From Nitrococcus sp. (GTDB lineage Bacteria > Pseudomonadota > Gammaproteobacteria > Nitrococcales > Nitrococcaceae), in NCBI GenBank assembly GCA_030452365.1, contig JAKDMK010000014.1, positions 1 to 15,274 on the forward strand: 15,274 bases of DNA. The letters are read 5' to 3'. The notes below the pieces were generated by a model. The model searched no databases. It saw only the letters and a program-made list of their open reading frames with translations, and had not been told where the DNA came from. A program made the position numbers and the translations under genes. Of this stretch, positions 7,244 through 15,274 are shown piece after piece. The number at the start of each line of letters is the position of its first letter. The first letter of the stretch is position 1.

Positions 7244-8443
7244 CTATACGGCCTCGAATATGCCGGCCGCGCCCATACCGGTGCCAACGCACATGGTCAC
7301 CATCCCGTAGCGCAAACCGCGCCGGCGCAGGCCGTGCAGCAGAGTGGCGGTGCGGATGGCACCGGTGGCGCCGAGCGGATGGCCGAGCGCAATAGCCCCG
7401 CCGAGGGGGTTGACTCGCTCGGAGTCCAGCCCTAGTTCGCGCATCACCGCCAGGCTTTGGGCCGCGAACGCCTCGTTGAGCTCGATCCATTCGAGCTGGT
7501 CCTGGGTCAGACCCGCGCGCGCTAAGGCCTGAGGAATCGCGACCTTCGGGCCGATGCCCATGATCTGCGGCGGCACGCCGACCACACTATAGGCGACCCA
7601 GCGGGCGAGCGGCCGCACGCCAAGGCGCTTGACCATCTGCTCGCTCATGACCACGACCGCCCCGGCCCCATCGCTGGTTTGCGAGCTGTTGCCCGCCGTC
7701 ACCGAACCGCGCGCCGCGAATACCGGGCGCAGCTTAGCCAGAACCTCCTGGGTGGTGCCCGGCCTTGGTCCCTCATCCGTATCCACGATCCGCTCGTGTA
7801 CCGCAACCGTCTGGCCATCGGCGGAGGGTGTCCGCTGGCGCAGCGTATAGGGCAGAATCCCGGCGCCGAGCTCGCCGGTCTCGATAGCGTGCAAAGCGCG
7901 CTGATGGCTCCGCACAGCGAAAGCGTCCTGATCCTCGCGCGAGACCCGCCAGCGCTCGGCCACTGTCTCGGCCGTCAGGCCCATGCCGAAAGCGATGCCA
8001 ATGTTTTCCTCGTGCGCGAAGATGGCCGGATTGAACGAGGGCTTATTGCCCATCCAGGGAATGGCGCTCATGCTCTCGGCACCGCCGGCAATGATGCAAT
8101 CGGCCTCACCCAGCCGCACTCGATCCGCGGCCATGGCGATGGCCTGCAGCCCGGAGGCACAAAACCGGTTGACGGTGGCGCCCGGCACCGCATCCGGCAA
8201 GCCGGCGAGCAAGGCCCCCATTCGAGCCACGTTGAGCCCCTGCTCCGCCTCGGGCATGGCGCAGCCGATGAGCACGTCCTCGATCGCCGCCGGCTCCAAG
8301 CCGGGGACCGCGTCGATTACGCCGCGCAATACGTGGACAAGCAGGTCATCCGGCCGCGTGGACCGGAATACACCGCGTGGGGCCTTGCCCACCGGCGTGC
8401 GTACGGCCGCCACGATGAAGGCATCCTGAATTTGTCTCGCCAT
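7244..8443 (-). CDS. fadA: Acetyl-CoA C-acyltransferase (3-ketoacyl-CoA thiolase)
   Basis: The last step of beta-oxidation: 3-ketoacyl-CoA plus CoA gives acetyl-CoA and a shortened acyl-CoA. This 399-aa thiolase has every catalytic landmark: the nucleophile Cys95 in [18 protein letters not shown], His355 in [14 protein letters not shown] and Cys385 in [21 protein letters not shown] and [13 protein letters not shown] resemble the Bacillus FadA type more than E. coli FadA or FadI. The ATG at 8443 is chosen because a strong GAGGAGGAGG Shine-Dalgarno precedes it; a TTG at 8461 would put that signal inside the gene. Only 14 nt separate it from the HAD/crotonase gene, so it belongs to the same operon. 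The hydratase/dehydrogenase upstream supports a degradative rather than biosynthetic thiolase. Confidence 0.95.
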
Positions 8444-8457
8444 AGCCTCCTCCTCAA

Positions 8458-10824
8458 TCAATTCCGCAACGGCTTGCCGGTCTTGAGCGTGTGGGCGATT
8501 CGATCCCGCGTCTTCTGGTTGCGCAGCAACGTCATGAAACCCTCGCGCTCAAGGTGCAACAGCCAACTCTCGGACACGCTAATCCCGGCATCCACGTCAC
8601 CACCGCAGAGAACGCTCGCCAAGCGTGCGGCAACCTCATAGTCGTACGCGGATATAAAGCCGCCGGAGCGCAGATTGACCAGAAAGGCCTCGAGCGTGGC
8701 CGCCCCATCCCGGCCCGCAACGCGCAAAGGCTGCTTCAATGGCGGGCGATAGCCAGCCTCAGCCAGCGCGATGGCCTGCTGCTGCGCCACATGCAATACC
8801 TCATCGGGGTGCAAAATAACCGTGCTATTGGGACCAAGCAGGCCGAATGTTTGCGCCTCGCGCGCGCTCTTCGCCACGCTGGCCTTGGCTACTGACTCGA
8901 AGTAGCGGCGCAGGAACGGGAACGGATCGCCATCCGCAGCAAGCTGCGCCGCCCGCCGCGCGAGCTCCTTGCAGCCACCGCCGGCCGGAATGAGGCCCAC
9001 TCCTGTCTCCACCAAACCGATATAGCTCTCGAGCGCGGCCACCACATGATCGCAGTGCATGAGGAACTCGCAGCCACCGCCGAGTGCCAGCCCACGAACG
9101 CCACCGACCACCGGGATTGACGAGTCGCGCAGGCACCCAGTGGCCTGCTGAAAGCGCGCTACCGTTCGCTCCAGGATTGGGTAGTCATCGGCGTCAAGGG
9201 CTGCAACCACCTGCTTTAGGTTGGCTCCGACCGAAAACGGCTCGGAATCCTGCCATAGAACGAGGCCTCGGAAGGAGCGCTCGGCGATGTCCACGGCCTC
9301 TATGATCCCGTCCAGGACGTCACTGCCGATCGCGTGCTGGCGCGCTTTGAAGCTCAGGATTGCGATGTCCGGCCTGAGGTTCCACAGACGTACCGCCTCG
9401 GTCTCGAACACCGTCTCGCCATGTGCGGCTGGTCGCTCGCCCAGGAGCTTTTCGGGGAAATATTGCCGCTGGTAGACCGCCAGCGCGGAGCGGGGACGAT
9501 ACACCCCGTCCGACGGCGCGTAGGAGCCGTCGGCTTTATGCACGGTCTCGATCCGGTGCACCCAATCGGGCAAAGGCACGGCCGCGAGCGTGCGCCCGGC
9601 GTCGATGTCCGCCTGGATTGCAGCCGCGGTCTCGCGCCAGCCGGCGGCCTGCCAAAGCTCGAACGGTCCGCGTTGCCAACCAAAGCCCCAGCGAATGGCC
9701 AGATCGACATCGCGCGCATTGTCGGCGATATGCGCCAGCAGATACGCCGCATAGTGGAACATATCCCGGTGGATACACCAGAGAAACTGCGCCTGCGGGT
9801 GCTCGGCTTGGCGCAGCCTCGCGAGCAAACTGCCCGCATCGGCCTGGCCGAGGATCTCCTGCAGCTCGGGCGCGGCCTCCGGCTCAGCGGGTCGATAATC
9901 GCCTCTATCGGCATCGAGCACCTGGATTTCCTTGTCTAGCTTGCGGTAGACGCCGGCGCCGGATTTCTGCCCCAGCGCCCCGGCCTTGATGAGCCGGCGC
10001 ATCCACTCGGGCAGCTTCAGGTAATCGACCCAGGGGTCATCGCGCAACCGCTCGGTCGAACCCTCCACCACATGCTGCAAAGTATCCAGGCCCACCACAT
10101 CCGCGGTGCGGAAGGTGGCGCTCTTGGGTCGGCCGATGGCCACGCCGGTCAGCGCGTCCACCACATCGAACGGCAGGCCGAGCCGATCGGCATGATGCAT
10201 CGCGGCCATGATCGCAAACACGCCGATGCGGTTGCCGATGAAATTCGGCGTATCGCGCGCACGCAGCACGCCCTTGCCTAAGGTAGCGGTGAGGAAAGTC
10301 TCCAGCTGATCGAGGACCCAGGGCGCGGTCTGCTCGCTCGGAGTCAGCTCCACCAAACGCATGTAGCGCGGCGGGTTGAAGAAGTGGATGCCGCAAAAGC
10401 GCTCGCGTATGGCCTCGGGTAGAACATCGGCCAGCTGATTGATCGACAGGCCCGAGGTATTGCTACCAACCAATGCATGCGGGGCAATGTAAGGGCCAAT
10501 CCGGGCAAAAAGGTCGCGCTTGATATCGAGCCGCTCGGCCACGGCCTCGATCAGCAGATCGCACTCGCGCAAGGCCTCCAGATGCTGTTCGTAGTTGGCC
10601 GAGACAAGCAGCTCAGCGTGCGCCGCGGTGGCCAGTGGACTCGGCTGCAGCTTGCGCAGCCGCGCTATCGCCCGTTGCACATGGGCATTGGGCTCGGCAC
10701 CCTCGGCCGGCAGCTCGAACAACACCGCGCGCACGCCGGCGTTCACCAGATGGGCCGCGATTTGCGCGCCCATCACCCCCGCACCGAGGACAGCGGCACG
10801 ACGTACGTGAGTGACTTCGCTCAT
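8458..10824 (-). CDS. fadN: Bifunctional 3-hydroxyacyl-CoA dehydrogenase/enoyl-CoA hydratase, FadN-type domain order
   Basis: This fusion enzyme carries out the two middle steps of beta-oxidation, hydration of enoyl-CoA and NAD-linked oxidation of 3-hydroxyacyl-CoA. The N-terminal half is the dehydrogenase: Rossmann motif GAGVMG at residues 14-19, SNTSGLSINQLA, and catalytic His in GIHFFNPPRYMRLVEL. Two helical 3HCDH-type segments follow (about 185-300 and 340-420). The crotonase domain (about 470-660) has both catalytic glutamates, in LALGGGCEF and GLVETGVGLIP, and an oxyanion-type FSVGANL segment. Dehydrogenase first and hydratase second is the FadN arrangement, the reverse of E. coli FadB/FadJ. 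The ATG at 10824 has AGGAG 9 nt upstream; the ATG at 10830 is only 3 nt from it. The gene follows fadE by 35 nt. Confidence 0.93.
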   Translation of the reverse strand: MSEVTHVRRAAVLGAGVMGAQIAAHLVNAGVRAVLFELPAEGAEPNAHVQRAIARLRKLQPSPLATAAHAELLVSANYEQHLEALRECDLLIEAVAERLDIKRDLFARIGPYIAPHALVGSNTSGLSINQLADVLPEAIRERFCGIHFFNPPRYMRLVELTPSEQTAPWVLDQLETFLTATLGKGVLRARDTPNFIGNRIGVFAIMAAMHHADRLGLPFDVVDALTGVAIGRPKSATFRTADVVGLDTLQHVVEGSTERLRDDPWVDYLKLPEWMRRLIKAGALGQKSGAGVYRKLDKEIQVLDADRGDYRPAEPEAAPELQEILGQADAGSLLARLRQAEHPQAQFLWCIHRDMFHYAAYLLAHIADNARDVDLAIRWGFGWQRGPFELWQAAGWRETAAAIQADIDAGRTLAAVPLPDWVHRIETVHKADGSYAPSDGVYRPRSALAVYQRQYFPEKLLGERPAAHGETVFETEAVRLWNLRPDIAILSFKARQHAIGSDVLDGIIEAVDIAERSFRGLVLWQDSEPFSVGANLKQVVAALDADDYPILERTVARFQQATGCLRDSSIPVVGGVRGLALGGGCEFLMHCDHVVAALESYIGLVETGVGLIPAGGGCKELARRAAQLAADGDPFPFLRRYFESVAKASVAKSAREAQTFGLLGPNSTVILHPDEVLHVAQQQAIALAEAGYRPPLKQPLRVAGRDGAATLEAFLVNLRSGGFISAYDYEVAARLASVLCGGDVDAGISVSESWLLHLEREGFMTLLRNQKTRDRIAHTLKTGKPLRN

Positions 10825-10859
10825 CCTCATGCTCTCCTAAGCAGACTTATTAGGGCCAA

Positions 10860-13352
10860 TCATTCGGCGGCACGGCGGGGCCAGCTGGCGTCCAGGCGCG
10901 CGGCTCGTGTTTGACGATCAAGCTCGGGTGCCAGCTCGGACGGGTCGAACGCATCGGTCTGAATCGCATCCCAGCGCAAGCGCTCGTATTCGCGCACCAA
11001 ATCCGCCTGTTCGCGCTCCAGTATCCCCTGCTCCAGGCAGGAGGCCAACTGCTCCTCGAAGGTGAAGCCCTTGGCCTGCCTCCTGGCCAGCGCTTTGATG
11101 AAGCGTTGGTAAGGCGTCTGTGCGCGCAGCAGCAGGTTGAAGGCGGCTTCCATGCGTCCGACTGGATCGTCGGCGGATCGGCCCAGGTAAACATGCTGCG
11201 CGAGGCGCTCGCGCACCCCACCGGCCTCCATCATCTGCCGGGCGATGCGGGCACTCAGGCGATCGTTCGGCGCCTTGTAGGGCCGACCCAGGGGAAATAC
11301 CGCAAACCGCAACGCATGCCCTACGCCGGTTATAGGAAAATTGTCGAAAAACCCATCAAAGGCCTGGTAGATCTCGCTCAGGCAATACTCGACCGCCCAT
11401 TGCATCGAGGCCAGTTCCTGTTCCGGCCGACCGGCATCGGCATGGTACTTGAGCACCGCCGAGGCAAGATAGAGATTGCTCAGCACATCGCCCAGCCGGG
11501 CCGAGAGGCGCTCCTTGCGCTTGAGCTCACCGCCCAGCACGCCCAAGGTCACGTCGGTGACGAACGCCAATGCGCTGCTCATCCGCGTGAGCTCGCGATA
11601 ATAGCGCGCGGCCGGCCCGCTGACCGGGGCCGCGACGAGACGGGCACCGGTCAGGGCATGCGTGAAGGTGCGCACGCCCCGGCTGCTGGTATAACCCATG
11701 TGCGCGAACAGCAGACTATCGAAGCGCTGCAATCCCCGCCGTGGATCACTGTCGTGCACCGCCGCCATTTCATCTCGCACATAGGGATGACAGCGAATGG
11801 CACCCTGGCCGAAGATCATCAGGCTTCGGGTCAGGATGTTCGCCCCCTCGACGGTAATAGCCACTGGAACGGACTGGTAAGCGTAGCCTAGGTAGTTGCG
11901 TGGGCCATAAATAATGGTCCGCCCGCCGTGAACGTCCATGGCATCGTTGATGGTAAGGCGCATGTGCTCGGTCATATGGTATTTGGCGATGGCGGAAACG
12001 ACCGCCGGCTTGATGCCCATGTCACCGGCACTCGCCGTCAGCACCCGGGCTGCCTCCAATAGATAGGTGCGTCCGGCGATCCGGGCCATGGCTTCCTGCA
12101 CACCCTCGAACTCACCGATCGGCAGCTTGAACTGACGGCGGATACGGGCATAGGCACCGGTCATGCGATAGCTGAGCTTAGCCGCCGCCGTTCCCAACGC
12201 CGGCAACGAGATGGCGCGTCCCACCGCCAGGCATTCCACCAGCATCCGCCAGCCCTTGCCGGCCATGGGCTGGCCGCCGATGATCCAATCAAGAGGAATG
12301 AACACATCATCACCCGCGACCGGGCCGTTCATAAACGCAAGCGCCATGGGGAAATGGCGCTGGCCGATTCGCACCCCCGCGTGATTCGTCGGAATCAAGG
12401 CACAGGTAATTCCGAGCGACTCCTCAGCGCCGAGTAAATGCTGTGGGTCGTAGAGCTTGAACGCGAGCCCGAGCACCGTTGCGACCGGGGCCAGCGTGAT
12501 GTAGCGCTTGTTGAAACTCAAGCGTATCCCCAGCACCTTTCGTCCGGCGTGCTCGCCCTTGCAGACGATCCCGTAATCGGGCATGGAACCCGCATCCGAG
12601 CCCACATCCGGACCAGTCAGGGCAAAGCAGGGAATCTCGCGACCGTCGGCAAGCCGCGGCAGCCAGTAATCCTTTTGCGCCTGGGTGCCGTACTTCATCA
12701 GCAACTCGCCCGGTCCGAGCGAGTTCGGGACCATCACGGTCACCGCGGTGGAGAGACTGCGCGTGGCGATCTTGGAGACGACTGTTGACTGCGCCAGGCT
12801 GGAGAAAGCAAGCCCGCCGTACTCCTCTGGAATGATCAAGCTGAAGAAGCGCTCCCGTTTTAGATAATCCCAGACCTCGGGCGGCAGATCATGGTCCTTG
12901 CGAACAATGCGATCCTCATCGAGCATCCCGCAAAGTGTCTCTACCTGGTGGTCGAGGAATGCTTGCTCCGCGGGCGTAAGCCGCGTTACCTGGAAGCCGA
13001 GCAACTTGGACCAATCCGGTCGACCTTGGAACAGCTCCGCTTCCCACCAGATATCGCCGGCGTCCAACGCCTCCCGCTCGGTCACGCTCATGGTAGGTAG
13101 CGCCTTGCGAAACAGGCCGAACAAAGGGCGTGTGATCAGCCGGCGGCGAATCGAGCCGACATTGAGCACTATCGCCGCAGGAATGAACAGCACCGCCGCG
13201 ACCAGCAGTCCCACCGCACCTATCCCCCCGCTTGCGAATAGGGCCAGCAGGTAAACCGCGCCCGCCGCGGTCCAGAGTGCCCGCGACACGCCAACGTAGG
13301 CCAGTGCCCAAACACCGGTTAGTGCGATCAGAATTGCAACCAGGGTGTACAT
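10860..13352 (-). CDS. fadE: Acyl-CoA dehydrogenase FadE, membrane-anchored type
   Basis: FAD-dependent oxidation of acyl-CoA to trans-2-enoyl-CoA, the first committed step of beta-oxidation. At 830 aa it matches the long proteobacterial FadE (E. coli 814 aa), not the short ~400-600 aa dehydrogenases. The N-terminal ~65 residues are strongly hydrophobic (two likely membrane segments) and end in GSIRRR, so the enzyme probably sits at the inner face of the cytoplasmic membrane. The catalytic core runs from about 140 to 520: IPEEYGGL, CFALTGPDVGSDAGS (flavin and substrate contacts), DAMDVHGGR, and VEGANILTRSLMIFGQGA. A helical FadE-specific C-terminal domain of about 300 residues follows. The ATG at 13352 has GGAG 7 nt upstream. 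It lies 84 nt after tetR and 35 nt before the HAD/crotonase gene. Confidence 0.97.
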   Translation of the reverse strand: MYTLVAILIALTGVWALAYVGVSRALWTAAGAVYLLALFASGGIGAVGLLVAAVLFIPAAIVLNVGSIRRRLITRPLFGLFRKALPTMSVTEREALDAGDIWWEAELFQGRPDWSKLLGFQVTRLTPAEQAFLDHQVETLCGMLDEDRIVRKDHDLPPEVWDYLKRERFFSLIIPEEYGGLAFSSLAQSTVVSKIATRSLSTAVTVMVPNSLGPGELLMKYGTQAQKDYWLPRLADGREIPCFALTGPDVGSDAGSMPDYGIVCKGEHAGRKVLGIRLSFNKRYITLAPVATVLGLAFKLYDPQHLLGAEESLGITCALIPTNHAGVRIGQRHFPMALAFMNGPVAGDDVFIPLDWIIGGQPMAGKGWRMLVECLAVGRAISLPALGTAAAKLSYRMTGAYARIRRQFKLPIGEFEGVQEAMARIAGRTYLLEAARVLTASAGDMGIKPAVVSAIAKYHMTEHMRLTINDAMDVHGGRTIIYGPRNYLGYAYQSVPVAITVEGANILTRSLMIFGQGAIRCHPYVRDEMAAVHDSDPRRGLQRFDSLLFAHMGYTSSRGVRTFTHALTGARLVAAPVSGPAARYYRELTRMSSALAFVTDVTLGVLGGELKRKERLSARLGDVLSNLYLASAVLKYHADAGRPEQELASMQWAVEYCLSEIYQAFDGFFDNFPITGVGHALRFAVFPLGRPYKAPNDRLSARIARQMMEAGGVRERLAQHVYLGRSADDPVGRMEAAFNLLLRAQTPYQRFIKALARRQAKGFTFEEQLASCLEQGILEREQADLVREYERLRWDAIQTDAFDPSELAPELDRQTRAARLDASWPRRAAE

Positions 13353-13402
13353 AAGGCTTCTCCGTTCGCGCCAATCGACAGCGCGCCACTCTCCCCTCGC
13401 CC

Positions 13403-13419
13403 GCCGCCGTCGCGGCGGC
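13403..13419 (-). other. GC-rich hairpin in the tetR-fadE gap
   Basis: GCCGCCG (13403-13409) and CGGCGGC (13413-13419) form a perfect 7-bp stem with a 3-nt loop. It lies between the tetR stop and the fadE Shine-Dalgarno. No T-tract follows on either strand, so it is not a classical terminator. It could stabilise or set the processing of the fadE mRNA, or mean nothing in such GC-rich DNA. Confidence 0.4.
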
Positions 13420-13436
13420 TAGGCCATGGAGGTTTC

Positions 13437-14030
13437 CTATACATGAACCAGATCCCGGCTATATCCGGGAATGAGCGCCTCGCCGATGAAGTGCATGTAC
13501 TCGTGGAAGTCATCGCCGATGGGAATAAGCTCCGGGGCGTCACGGCGCAGTTGCAGCGTTCCGAGGAACACCGAATAGGCCAATACCGCCCGCCGCCAGG
13601 CTTCCCCCGCCGATAGGCCCATGGCCGTGTAGCACTCGCGCAGGAACTGGACTCGATGATCCATCACGCGCCGTACAACCGTCTGAATCGGGTGGTTTTC
13701 CATAGCCCCGGTAAGGGCTAGATAAAGCCGTCCCGCGCGCCGGCTGCCATCCGCCTCACGAAACAAGCGCGCGAGTCGCTTGCGTGGGTCCCGCTCCTGT
13801 GATACCCGGGCGAGCACCTCGTCGGTTTCCCGGCGTTCCCAATGATCGAGTGCCGCCTGAATCAGAGCCTGGCGGTTGGCAAAATGCCAATAGAAGCTGC
13901 CTTTGGTAACGCCGAGTCGACGCGCCAACGACTCTACCGCCACCGTTTCCATTCCGGACTCGGCAATAACCTCGAGCGCGGCTTCCGCCCACGCATCGGC
14001 TGTCAACGACGGCCTAGAATTCCCACGCAT
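13437..14030 (-). CDS. TetR-family transcriptional regulator, probable regulator of the fad operon
   Basis: A 197-aa one-domain TetR regulator. The N-terminal helix-turn-helix is clear: VAVESLARRLGVTKGSFYWHF, about residues 30-50, ends in the family hallmark for DNA recognition. The rest is a helical ligand/dimer domain with no recognisable specificity. It heads the operon that continues into fadE, the HAD/crotonase gene and the thiolase, so a role as a fatty-acyl-CoA-responsive repressor is likely by analogy with other TetR-type beta-oxidation regulators; the ligand is not shown. The start is the ATG at 14030: a promoter with a perfect palindrome lies just upstream and would put the transcript start at or one base before this ATG. 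An in-frame ATG at 14066 would add 12 unlikely residues and place the palindrome inside the gene. Confidence 0.88.
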   Translation of the reverse strand: MRGNSRPSLTADAWAEAALEVIAESGMETVAVESLARRLGVTKGSFYWHFANRQALIQAALDHWERRETDEVLARVSQERDPRKRLARLFREADGSRRAGRLYLALTGAMENHPIQTVVRRVMDHRVQFLRECYTAMGLSAGEAWRRAVLAYSVFLGTLQLRRDAPELIPIGDDFHEYMHFIGEALIPGYSRDLVHV

Positions 14031-14037
14031 ATAATGC

Positions 14038-14066
14038 AATCTAGTCCATACGCATGCGTATGGCAA
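14038..14066 (-). promoter_or_regulatory. Promoter of the tetR-fad operon
   Basis: On the minus strand, TTGCCA (14066-14061, 5 of 6 with the sigma-70 -35 box) is followed after exactly 17 nt by TAGATT (14043-14038, 4 of 6 with -10). Transcription would begin near 14030-14031, at the tetR ATG. tetR has no Shine-Dalgarno, so its mRNA may be leaderless. The call is by consensus only. Confidence 0.55.
14046..14063. promoter_or_regulatory. Perfect 18-bp palindrome, probable TetR operator
   Basis: CCATACGCATGCGTATGG reads the same on both strands with no mismatch. It sits in the spacer of the tetR promoter and overlaps the -35 box, so a protein bound here would block the polymerase. Length, symmetry and place fit a TetR-dimer operator and autoregulation. 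I found no second copy upstream of fadE or the COX-like gene. Confidence 0.65.
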
Positions 14067-14450
14067 CTCTGAGCCGAAGGGGTTTACTCCCCCGCCGCCG
14101 CGCTACTATGAAGGGCTCCAACTCCCTGCCATCCGTCTTGCTGCGCTTCTGTGATACTTGTACAGCCATACCACCTCAGCTAGGAAAGCTTGAGTACCGA
14201 AACTTGTGCACAATGAGTCAAGTTTTCCATGGGGCGAGTTGCTCCTGTTCACAGAAGGCGCGGTGTTGGTGGAGCGCAACGGGTGCTCGGTGCAGCCCAC
14301 GTCCTCAACTCGCCCGTGTAACAACTCGTCGGTCTGAGGCGGAGCCTCGTTGTGGTGTAACTGGTAACGTGTCGCCGTAATTCCCCGTAATTCCCAGATT
14401 GCCCACTACTTGCGCATCGGATGTCCCGCTACTGCAAGTGAAGCATCCGA
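14067..14450. other. Intergenic stretch without a supportable gene
   Basis: Nothing here reads as a convincing gene on either strand. The open frames are short, lack Shine-Dalgarno signals and give Ser/Arg/Cys-rich translations unlike any family I know. One short plus-strand frame ending with TGA at about 14336-14338 has a protein-like piece (LLLFTEGAVLVERNG) but no good start, so a decayed gene remnant is possible. Small signals seen are AAACTTG/CAAGTTT inverted (14200-14206 with 14219-14225), GAGGC/GCCTC (14336-14340 with 14344-14348), a tandem 10-mer, and an 8-bp inverted repeat near its right end. Confidence 0.5.
14375..14394. repeat. Tandem duplication of a 10-mer
   Basis: CCGTAATTCC occurs twice back to back with no mismatch (14375-14384, 14385-14394). 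It lies in the gene-free stretch before the COX-like gene and may mark a junction, a slippage event or a binding-site pair. Confidence 0.7.
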
Positions 14451-14451
14451 T
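14416..14451. repeat. 8-bp inverted repeat upstream of the COX-like gene
   Basis: ATCGGATG (14416-14423) and CATCCGAT (14444-14451) are perfect inverted copies separated by 20 nt. Their right arm touches the proposed -35 box at 14451-14456. The pair could be a regulator site or a hairpin. Confidence 0.5.
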
Positions 14452-14479
14452 TACCAACGCCGGAAGGGGCGTTTATACT
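14451..14479 (+). promoter_or_regulatory. Candidate promoter for the COX-like gene
   Basis: TTACCA (14451-14456), a 17-nt spacer, then TATACT (14474-14479) fit a sigma-70 promoter on the plus strand. Two more TATACT boxes at 14502-14507 and 14509-14514 are alternatives but have poor -35 boxes. The proposed transcript would have an untranslated leader of about 78 nt. Confidence 0.45.
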
Positions 14480-14508
14480 TCCTGTACTCGTTTATCTTTC
14501 CTATACTC
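14471..14508. repeat. 19-bp imperfect tandem repeat in the COX-like gene promoter
   Basis: Two adjoining 19-bp units, 14471-14489 and 14490-14508, both begin GTTTAT and end with TACTC; they match at 16 of 19 positions. The first unit contains the proposed -10 box. Confidence 0.65.
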
Positions 14509-14563
14509 TATACTCCACGTCTGGGCGGGACCACTGGTACAACGCCAAAATCCTAAACTAAAA

Positions 14564-15274
14564 ATGGGTATGAACATGGATGAATTTTTCTTCCAGTTGG
14601 TTTTGCGGATTGCAAACAGATTCCCATGGATTGCGAGGGTTGCCTCGCGGATAACGTGGTTGAGGCGGTTTATCAGTGACATTATTATCAATTGGCTAGC
14701 CTATTCCGCAAAGCCCCGACCCAGACCCTTTTCAATGGCTTCGTCGTATACGACATGGGAATCGTTAACTGACAGATCTTTTACCGGACGCCATCTGCCA
14801 GAGGCGGAAGGAGATCGGAACCTCCCGGACATAGAGAAAATCGTTGATCTATGGCGAAGAAACGAGAATGTAGAGATACCTTCGGTCAATACAAGCATAT
14901 TATTTTCATTCTTTGCCCAATGGTTTGTCGATAGTTTTCTTAGGACAGATTTTCGCGACCGTCGAAAAAATACATCGAACCATGAAATCGATCTTTGCCA
15001 GATCTATGGTTTAGGTAAAGAAAATACCCATATTCTACGATTACGCAAAGAAGGCAAGCTGAAGTACCAAGTTATAGATGGAGATATTTATCCTCCCTAT
15101 CTCTTTAACGTTGACGAGACGACTACGGATAAGTGGGTGTTTGCCAATGACGAATTTAAAAAGTTGCACCCACGATATGTTTTGGATTTTGTTTTTAATG
15201 GTGTTCCAGAGAGCCGGTTAAAGCGCATGCTTGCCGTTGGATTGGAGCACGGCAACTCCTCAATTGGCTATACC
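14564..15274 (+). CDS. Cyclooxygenase (prostaglandin H synthase)-like haem oxygenase, 5' part only
   Basis: The first 237 residues of an animal-haem-peroxidase-superfamily protein, open to the window edge. Similarity to mammalian COX is clear by eye: YTTWESLTDRSF (residues 62-73; COX YISWESFSNVSY), FFAQWFVDSF (116-125; COX FFAQHFTHQF), then a long match through LRLRKEGKLKYQVIDGDIYPP (about 158-178) and RLKRMLAVGLEHG. There is no signal peptide or EGF-like domain. The first ~50 residues form amphipathic hydrophobic segments that could be a monotopic membrane-binding region. Distal Gln is kept (Q119) but the distal His position is Asp (D123). The catalytic Tyr and proximal His lie beyond the window. 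Base composition is much lower in G+C than its neighbours, suggesting transfer. The start is unsure: ATGs at 14564, 14570 and 14576 are in frame and none has a Shine-Dalgarno. The likely reaction is fatty-acid dioxygenation; substrate unknown. Confidence 0.85.
   Translation, partial: MGMNMDEFFFQLVLRIANRFPWIARVASRITWLRRFISDIIINWLAYSAKPRPRPFSMASSYTTWESLTDRSFTGRHLPEAEGDRNLPDIEKIVDLWRRNENVEIPSVNTSILFSFFAQWFVDSFLRTDFRDRRKNTSNHEIDLCQIYGLGKENTHILRLRKEGKLKYQVIDGDIYPPYLFNVDETTTDKWVFANDEFKKLHPRYVLDFVFNGVPESRLKRMLAVGLEHGNSSIGYT

Follow-up and report, generated by a model that had tools for sequence, protein, structure and literature searches.

The window, meaning the whole 15,274-nucleotide stretch of Nitrococcus sp. 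DNA analyzed here (contig JAKDMK010000014.1 of assembly GCA_030452365.1), ends inside a gene. One open frame of 237 codons occupies positions 14564-15274 of the forward strand, where it is cut by the contig end, and this frame remains open upstream as far as a TTG at 14399. ATG codons at 14564 and 14570 on the same strand are alternative in-frame starts. ATG 14576, rather than 14564, appears most likely to be the real start, because relatives in Nitrosospira and Nitrosomonas begin at that codon (MDEFFF or MNEFFF) and because positions 14556-14575 (forward strand) match their ribosome-binding stretch. In this alignment, made by eye, 14564-14575 falls on the ribosome-binding region of the relatives, and similarity to Nitrosomonadaceae begins here, at 14554-14576 depending on the genome. 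Read from ATG 14576 (14576-15274, forward strand), the fragment comprises 233 codons, the N-terminal part of a protein of about 535 residues. The interpretation we favor, and regard as probable, is that it belongs to a cyclooxygenase (COX)-related heme fatty-acid dioxygenase of the linoleate 10S-dioxygenase (10S-DOX) type, which was acquired horizontally and today stands downstream of a host repeat carrying a promoter-like site.

The contig (C339) is part of a genome bin, G000, of 3.16 Mb in 656 contigs (95.4% complete, 4.2% contamination). When the 3′ half of the gene was sought in G000 with the full-length protein of a relative (L006, from a Nitrosospira metagenome-assembled genome, MAG) and with PF03098 (An_peroxidase), the only matches were the window end and a different gene on contigs C11 and C268. 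The former (L004 1-1710, minus strand) carries the start of a catalase-like plus An_peroxidase gene and the latter (start of L003) the end of an An_peroxidase gene, each at a contig end; the two pieces possibly form one second dioxygenase-type gene.

Family and Relatives

A first-pass annotation of this DNA, made by a model from the letters and their translations, had pointed to similarity with COX-1 and COX-2, and this likeness is real. The window frame matches COX-1 and COX-2 chains in the PDB at E values of 2.4e-19 to 9e-17 (query residues 14-180 at most), far above chance, and the blocks GKLKYQV and YPP are seen. The fragment scores 14.9 bits against PF03098, under the curated cut-off of 25, probably because its 3′ part is lacking; full-length L006 scores 138 bits, above the cut-off, and aligns with COX-2 across residues 12-531 (E 3.6e-63). 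A comparison with α-dioxygenase had also been proposed; run on L006, it gave a much weaker match to plant fatty acid α-dioxygenase (E 2e-17), and an α-dioxygenase identity was rejected because COX is so much nearer. A plain peroxidase was considered and set aside. The predicted model of L006 has three N-terminal helices and aligns with COX from residue 79 on, and the nearest solved structures, by sequence and by the fold of this model, are COX-1 and COX-2. The window sequence aligns with the COX membrane-binding region from residue 14-16, and neither it nor its relatives have an epidermal growth factor (EGF) domain. The fragment thus very likely belongs to a COX-related family.

A pattern scan of contigs from one genome per species (84,980 species) yielded 63 confirmed loci. 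The pattern, NHEIDLCQ near the distal helix, biases this set toward the clade of the window; the distal motif itself was not used as a pattern. Motifs were counted at 62 of the 63 loci (L048, whose frame is broken at the match start, was left out), the tree was built from 61 loci plus the window (without L048 and L051), residues were tabulated for 58 (without L048 and the truncated L051, L045, L046 and L066), and neighboring genes were listed for 56. Nearest to the window are L006 and L007 (Nitrosovibrio), at 84-85% amino acid identity; twelve further Nitrosomonadaceae loci are 72-78% identical, and the remaining loci, at 30-52%, come from actinobacteria, alphaproteobacteria, cyanobacteria and others. 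The first-pass annotation had called COX-type oxygenases rare in bacteria. When 5.8 billion proteins were searched, 7,996 candidates were scored and at least 3,999 clusters reached E ≤ 1e-10. The family is therefore widespread in bacteria, contrary to that statement.

Active-Site Residues

The distal heme helix of the window reads FAQWFVDSFL (14912-14941), in alignment with FAQHFTHQFF of COX; this and the following codons are on the forward strand. Within it, a Gln codon (14918-14920) stands at the position of COX Gln-203 and an Asp codon (14930-14932) at that of His-207. FAQWFTD was read in all 62 relatives, whereas the window has FAQWFVDSF, with a Val codon (14927-14929) where 58 of 58 aligned relatives carry Thr. 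A Leu codon (14696-14698) occupies the position of Arg-120, the carboxylate binder of COX, which is absent from all 57 relatives that are not gapped at this position (one of the 58 is); L006 and L007 have Gln. Altogether, 21 of 22 invariant positions are preserved in the window.

When the 58 relatives are aligned to a COX-2 chain, Gln-203, Asp in place of His-207, Tyr-348 and Tyr-385 are found in every one, and His-388 in 57. The motif YRWH, which contains the catalytic Tyr and the proximal His, was read in 60 of 62 relatives, the exceptions being L051 (a truncated frame) and L060. A check for Tyr-385 and His-388 equivalents had been proposed earlier; in the window copy this region (that of Tyr-342 in the Nostoc enzyme discussed below) lies past the contig end. 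Moreover, all 58 relatives have Ala for Ser-530 and Val or Ile for Gly-526, positions that in the window copy likewise fall past the contig end. Hence the label COX-type holds in the sense of a COX relative, by sequence and by the fold of L006, but not in the strict sense, given the Asp at His-207, the absence of Arg-120 and, in the relatives, the Ala at Ser-530.

Comparison with Characterized Enzymes

The closest characterized enzyme that we found is the linoleate 10S-dioxygenase of Nostoc punctiforme (NpDOX, UniProt B2J5P4), reportedly the subject of work by Brash et al. in 2014; the likeness described here is drawn from its published residues, not from its full sequence. According to a 2026 review, the Nostoc enzyme has 542 residues and about 31% identity to COX, turns oleate and linoleate into 10S-hydroperoxides, and shows an F143-tds-F distal helix, Ile-483 for Gly-526, Ala-487 for Ser-530, and membrane-binding helices B to D (PMC13049297). 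The window and its relatives share with NpDOX the distal F-x-D-S-F with Asp for His-207, and the proteins are alike in having about 540 residues, membrane-binding helices and no EGF domain; the relatives also share Ala for Ser-530 and Val or Ile for Gly-526, and keep Tyr-348, Tyr-385 and His-388. COX-1 and COX-2 (prostaglandin G/H synthase) have an EGF domain, the distal His-207 and Arg-120, all of which this group lacks, and Ser-530, which is absent from the relatives. We can say with considerable confidence that the fragment represents a bacterial 10S-DOX-type enzyme, a sister kind of cyclooxygenase.

A true cyclooxygenase making prostaglandin-like endoperoxides is a highly improbable alternative. 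It would be in keeping with COX-1 and COX-2 as the nearest solved structures by sequence and fold, and with the name prostaglandin-endoperoxide synthase 2 that the Joint Genome Institute (JGI) label gives to many relatives among the matches listed, but the distal His, Arg-120, Ser-530 and Gly-526 are replaced in every aligned relative with a residue there. To our knowledge, C20 polyunsaturated substrates are not to be expected in such bacteria, which also counts against it. Finally, the replacements follow the 10S-DOX pattern (PMC13049297).

Fungal dioxygenase-P450 fusions (the linoleate diol synthase family) belong to the same superfamily. The fungal enzymes, however, carry a His on the distal side and are built differently in the membrane-binding region (PMC13049297, PMC9579011). 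Two loci, in Mesorhizobium (L039, 7983-10892) and Methylocapsa (L050, 7962-11126), encode dioxygenase-P450 fusions with the FAQWFTD helix and a C-terminal P450 domain, which recall the fungal linoleate diol synthases; L006 shows no P450 domain.

Proposed Function

By analogy with these enzymes, the most likely function would be to oxygenate unsaturated fatty acids of C16-C18 stereospecifically, yielding hydroperoxides, and oxylipin production as such is our best inference. In the radical mechanism established for COX and for fungal dioxygenase (DOX) enzymes, which may apply here as well, a peroxide would oxidize the heme to ferryl heme, and the latter would generate a radical on the Tyr-385 equivalent. 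An unsaturated C16-C18 fatty acid in the channel would then lose an allylic hydrogen to the Tyr radical, O2 would add, and the fatty-acid hydroperoxide would be released; a prostaglandin-type endoperoxide would not be expected. The distal Asp, perhaps acting as an acid-base group, and Gln-203 may stand in for His in peroxide handling. The window copy, if expressed, would be predicted to carry the same catalytic Tyr and His and to yield the same kind of product.

This family forms a large bacterial branch beside cyclooxygenase, in which we found one characterized member (the Nostoc 10S-DOX) against thousands of sequences. Moreover, the invariant Asp in place of the distal His poses the question of how peroxide is handled in a COX fold.

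Upstream Repeats and Origin of the Gene

Two distinct host-genus repeats, one promoter-like and one with inverted-repeat stretches, lie upstream of the gene in 14180-14351 and 14418-14509. The nearer repeat (14418-14490, forward strand) includes a promoter-like site, TTACCA-17-TATACT, at 14451-14479 (forward strand); two such sites, one per strand, were found in the region against 0.4 expected. Another copy of this repeat stands upstream of a glycosyltransferase-like gene on C420, which is a host contig as well (over parts, 93% to G003 of the same genus and 79% to G004). A second, weaker copy of the repeat core (3 mismatches) follows at 14488-14509 (forward strand). With up to 3 mismatches, the 22-letter core occurs six times in G000, including 14469-14490 and 14488-14509 of the window, compared with none in the reversed control; there are four in G003 against one in the reversed control, one in G001, and none in G002 or G004. 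Five of the nine core copies outside the window are followed by a frame of at least 228 residues that starts within 360 bases downstream, and the other four have no frame of that size in the stretch examined. Some gene labels (glycosyltransferase, lyase and kinase downstream of repeat copies; lepA) were assigned by eye. The second repeat, of about 175 bp (14180-14351, forward strand), recurs in full or in part on contigs C607, C189 and C152 and in G003. An integron attC site was considered for the upstream repeat and dropped as a poor fit by eye; no integrase was sought.

By sequence, the host is a gammaproteobacterium: its FadE-type protein is 86% identical to a protein labeled Nitrococcus sp., the next named matches (67-70%) being Arhodomonas, Alkalilimnicola and Sediminicurvatus, and window positions 12600-14071 match G003 at 91%. 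In a tree of the N-terminal region, by contrast, the window dioxygenase nests in Nitrosomonadaceae (15 rows; SH-like approximate likelihood ratio, SH-aLRT, 100), together with L006 and L007 (93). The fragment has a G+C fraction at third codon positions (GC3) of 0.459, compared to 0.67-0.81 in six host genes, and because this value is donor-like the gene looks newly arrived. It was found in none of 4 same-genus and none of 18 same-family genomes; among 95 genomes searched, besides G000, two from other families of the class had distant partial matches (27-28%). Upstream of 14554 there was no match in 14 Nitrosomonadaceae genomes. With host repeats upstream and Nitrosomonadaceae similarity downstream, the DNA appears host-like to at least 14490 and donor-like from about 14556. 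One transfer event would account for this border, and we judge it likely that the gene passed horizontally from a Nitrosospira- or Nitrosovibrio-like ammonia oxidizer to a Nitrococcus-like host, rather than being joined to host DNA by an assembly error. If the junction is real, the window adds a probable gene transfer between organisms of nitrifying communities.

Such an error, a false junction somewhere in 14491-14555 between the host contig and one from a Nitrosospira-type organism in that sample, would make the gene real but another organism's; it is the less likely explanation, yet one that deserves serious weight. About 700 bases of the gene precede the contig end, and neither its remainder nor a lipoxygenase turned up on the other contigs of the bin; the donor-like base composition and the absence of the gene from same-genus and same-family genomes also agree with a misjoin, as do the repeats just upstream, since repeats tangle assemblies. 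These repeats, however, are host repeats, and because they were unmatched in the 14 Nitrosomonadaceae genomes, there is no sign of the shared repeat from which chimeras usually arise. Furthermore, exact matches between 14400-14700 and the 14 Nitrosomonadaceae loci, a set that does not include the true donor strain, do not exceed 18 bases. Weak evidence against a misjoin is the window amino-acid branch, which is 3-4 times as long as the branches of L006 and L007 and exceeds what the synonymous distances (0.50 to L007, 0.63 to L006) suggest.

That longer branch would equally fit a host copy that is a decaying remnant and happens to stop near the contig end, as would the Val at an otherwise invariant Thr, the weakened Shine-Dalgarno sequence, and the failure to find the 3′ half and a lipoxygenase elsewhere in the bin. 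We consider decay improbable, in view of the 233 open codons, a Ka of 0.09 and a Ka/Ks of 0.14-0.18 for the window gene versus both L006 and L007 (L016 was left out of this calculation), and the 21 conserved invariant positions.

Several observations weigh against acquisition of a working 10S-DOX-type gene. The Val beside the Asp could mean decay, and so could the Shine-Dalgarno sequence, which looks weakened in the window copy. The half that carries Tyr and His is not in the assembly, and the window copy is only putatively active; among the relatives, L060 is without the proximal His. L006 has just 46% identity to the two cyanobacterial proteins used for comparison and, judged by eye, GxDAF is nearly all that the terminal motif shares with the one published for 10S-DOX. 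Finally, the case for transfer depends on a single contig end in a MAG with 656 contigs and 4.2% contamination.

Neighboring Genes

At all 14 Nitrosomonas, Nitrosospira and Nitrosovibrio loci (L006-L019), the dioxygenase gene is directly followed, in the same orientation, by one for a lipoxygenase (phmmer), with PF00305 present in the three tested. The pair in N. europaea consists of a dioxygenase gene at L014 8010-9611 and a lipoxygenase gene at L014 9647-11344. With the starts adopted here, 35-184 bases separate the two genes, or 3 in L018, for which an earlier start was used. Of four lipoxygenases examined, each with Val or Ile as the last residue, three have the full five-His metal motif, which was not seen with regular spacing in that of L006. 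No lipoxygenase was detected by tblastn at 1e-5 at the other 49 loci, nor in any of the five genomes G000-G004, where there was no positive control; the same query finds kin at the 14 loci (tblastn, phmmer). The Nostoc enzyme is instead partnered with a catalase-related hydroperoxide lyase. No catalase-related partner was present among the annotated neighbors on one Acaryochloris plasmid or among 38 scanned neighbor proteins (of 407 listed, from 56 loci). We found no earlier description of the dioxygenase-lipoxygenase pair in the open-licence literature; the pair of N. europaea and its relatives is testable in cultured strains.

The N. europaea pair is flanked, within L014 6322-14261, by a tyrosinase gene and a large An_peroxidase gene; the latter follows the lipoxygenase gene here and in N. 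communis (L008 11409-14447). Immediately before the dioxygenase gene of Jannaschia, Roseibium and Stappia stands one that encodes a RoxA-like cytochrome c domain (L059 5157-7613; L064 5161-7620; L065 5161-7620).

In the window, the neighbors are genes of fatty acid oxidation. As the first-pass annotation described, a divergent block lies beside the dioxygenase gene, with domain matches on the reverse strand to a TetR-family regulator (13437-14066), which is a neighbor and not part of the dioxygenase system, a FadE-type acyl-CoA dehydrogenase (10860-13352), a 3-hydroxyacyl-CoA dehydrogenase/enoyl-CoA hydratase (FadB, 8458-10830) and a thiolase (7244-8461). That annotation had proposed one regulated fork, with fatty acids going either to β-oxidation or to oxylipins, for which the divergent arrangement and the adjoining regulator speak. 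We consider this very improbable. TetR and FadE adjoin in all four same-genus genomes (DNA identity 80-91%), every one of which is without the dioxygenase gene; FadB is whole in three of them and cut by a contig end in the fourth, and the thiolase is seen in two, the stretches of the other two stopping before it. The best match, G003, has other content upstream of TetR, and in the window two repeats and about 510 bp separate the newly arrived-looking gene from TetR. At none of the 63 related loci were kin of TetR, FadE or FadB found at E ≤ 1e-5, and one locus (L057) has just a distant, 30% identical thiolase. The proposed neighborhood comparison likewise gave no match to any of the four proteins at the 14 Nitrosomonadaceae loci at this threshold. 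There is no conserved tie between the dioxygenase gene and the fad genes. Given that lipoxygenase is next in 14 of 14 donor-clade loci and fad kin were not found there, the conserved partner in that clade is lipoxygenase, not β-oxidation.

It is possible, and we suggest it only tentatively, that the ammonia oxidizers Nitrosomonas and Nitrosospira have a two-gene oxylipin operon, whose COX-like dioxygenase and lipoxygenase act on shared fatty acids, and that its first gene crossed to a nitrite-oxidizer-like relative of Nitrococcus, where it came to lie behind the host promoter-like repeat. If true, an oxylipin signal or a membrane-lipid chemistry would be common to both partners in nitrification.

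A NarG-like match was obtained in all five host-genus genomes searched, above the cut-off in four, and the genus has a narG/narH/narJ/narI-like operon (L119 2524-11245; L118 2360-9133). In G000 this operon is preceded by a cytochrome c gene, an arrangement that would fit a nitrite oxidoreductase operon and a nitrite oxidizer.
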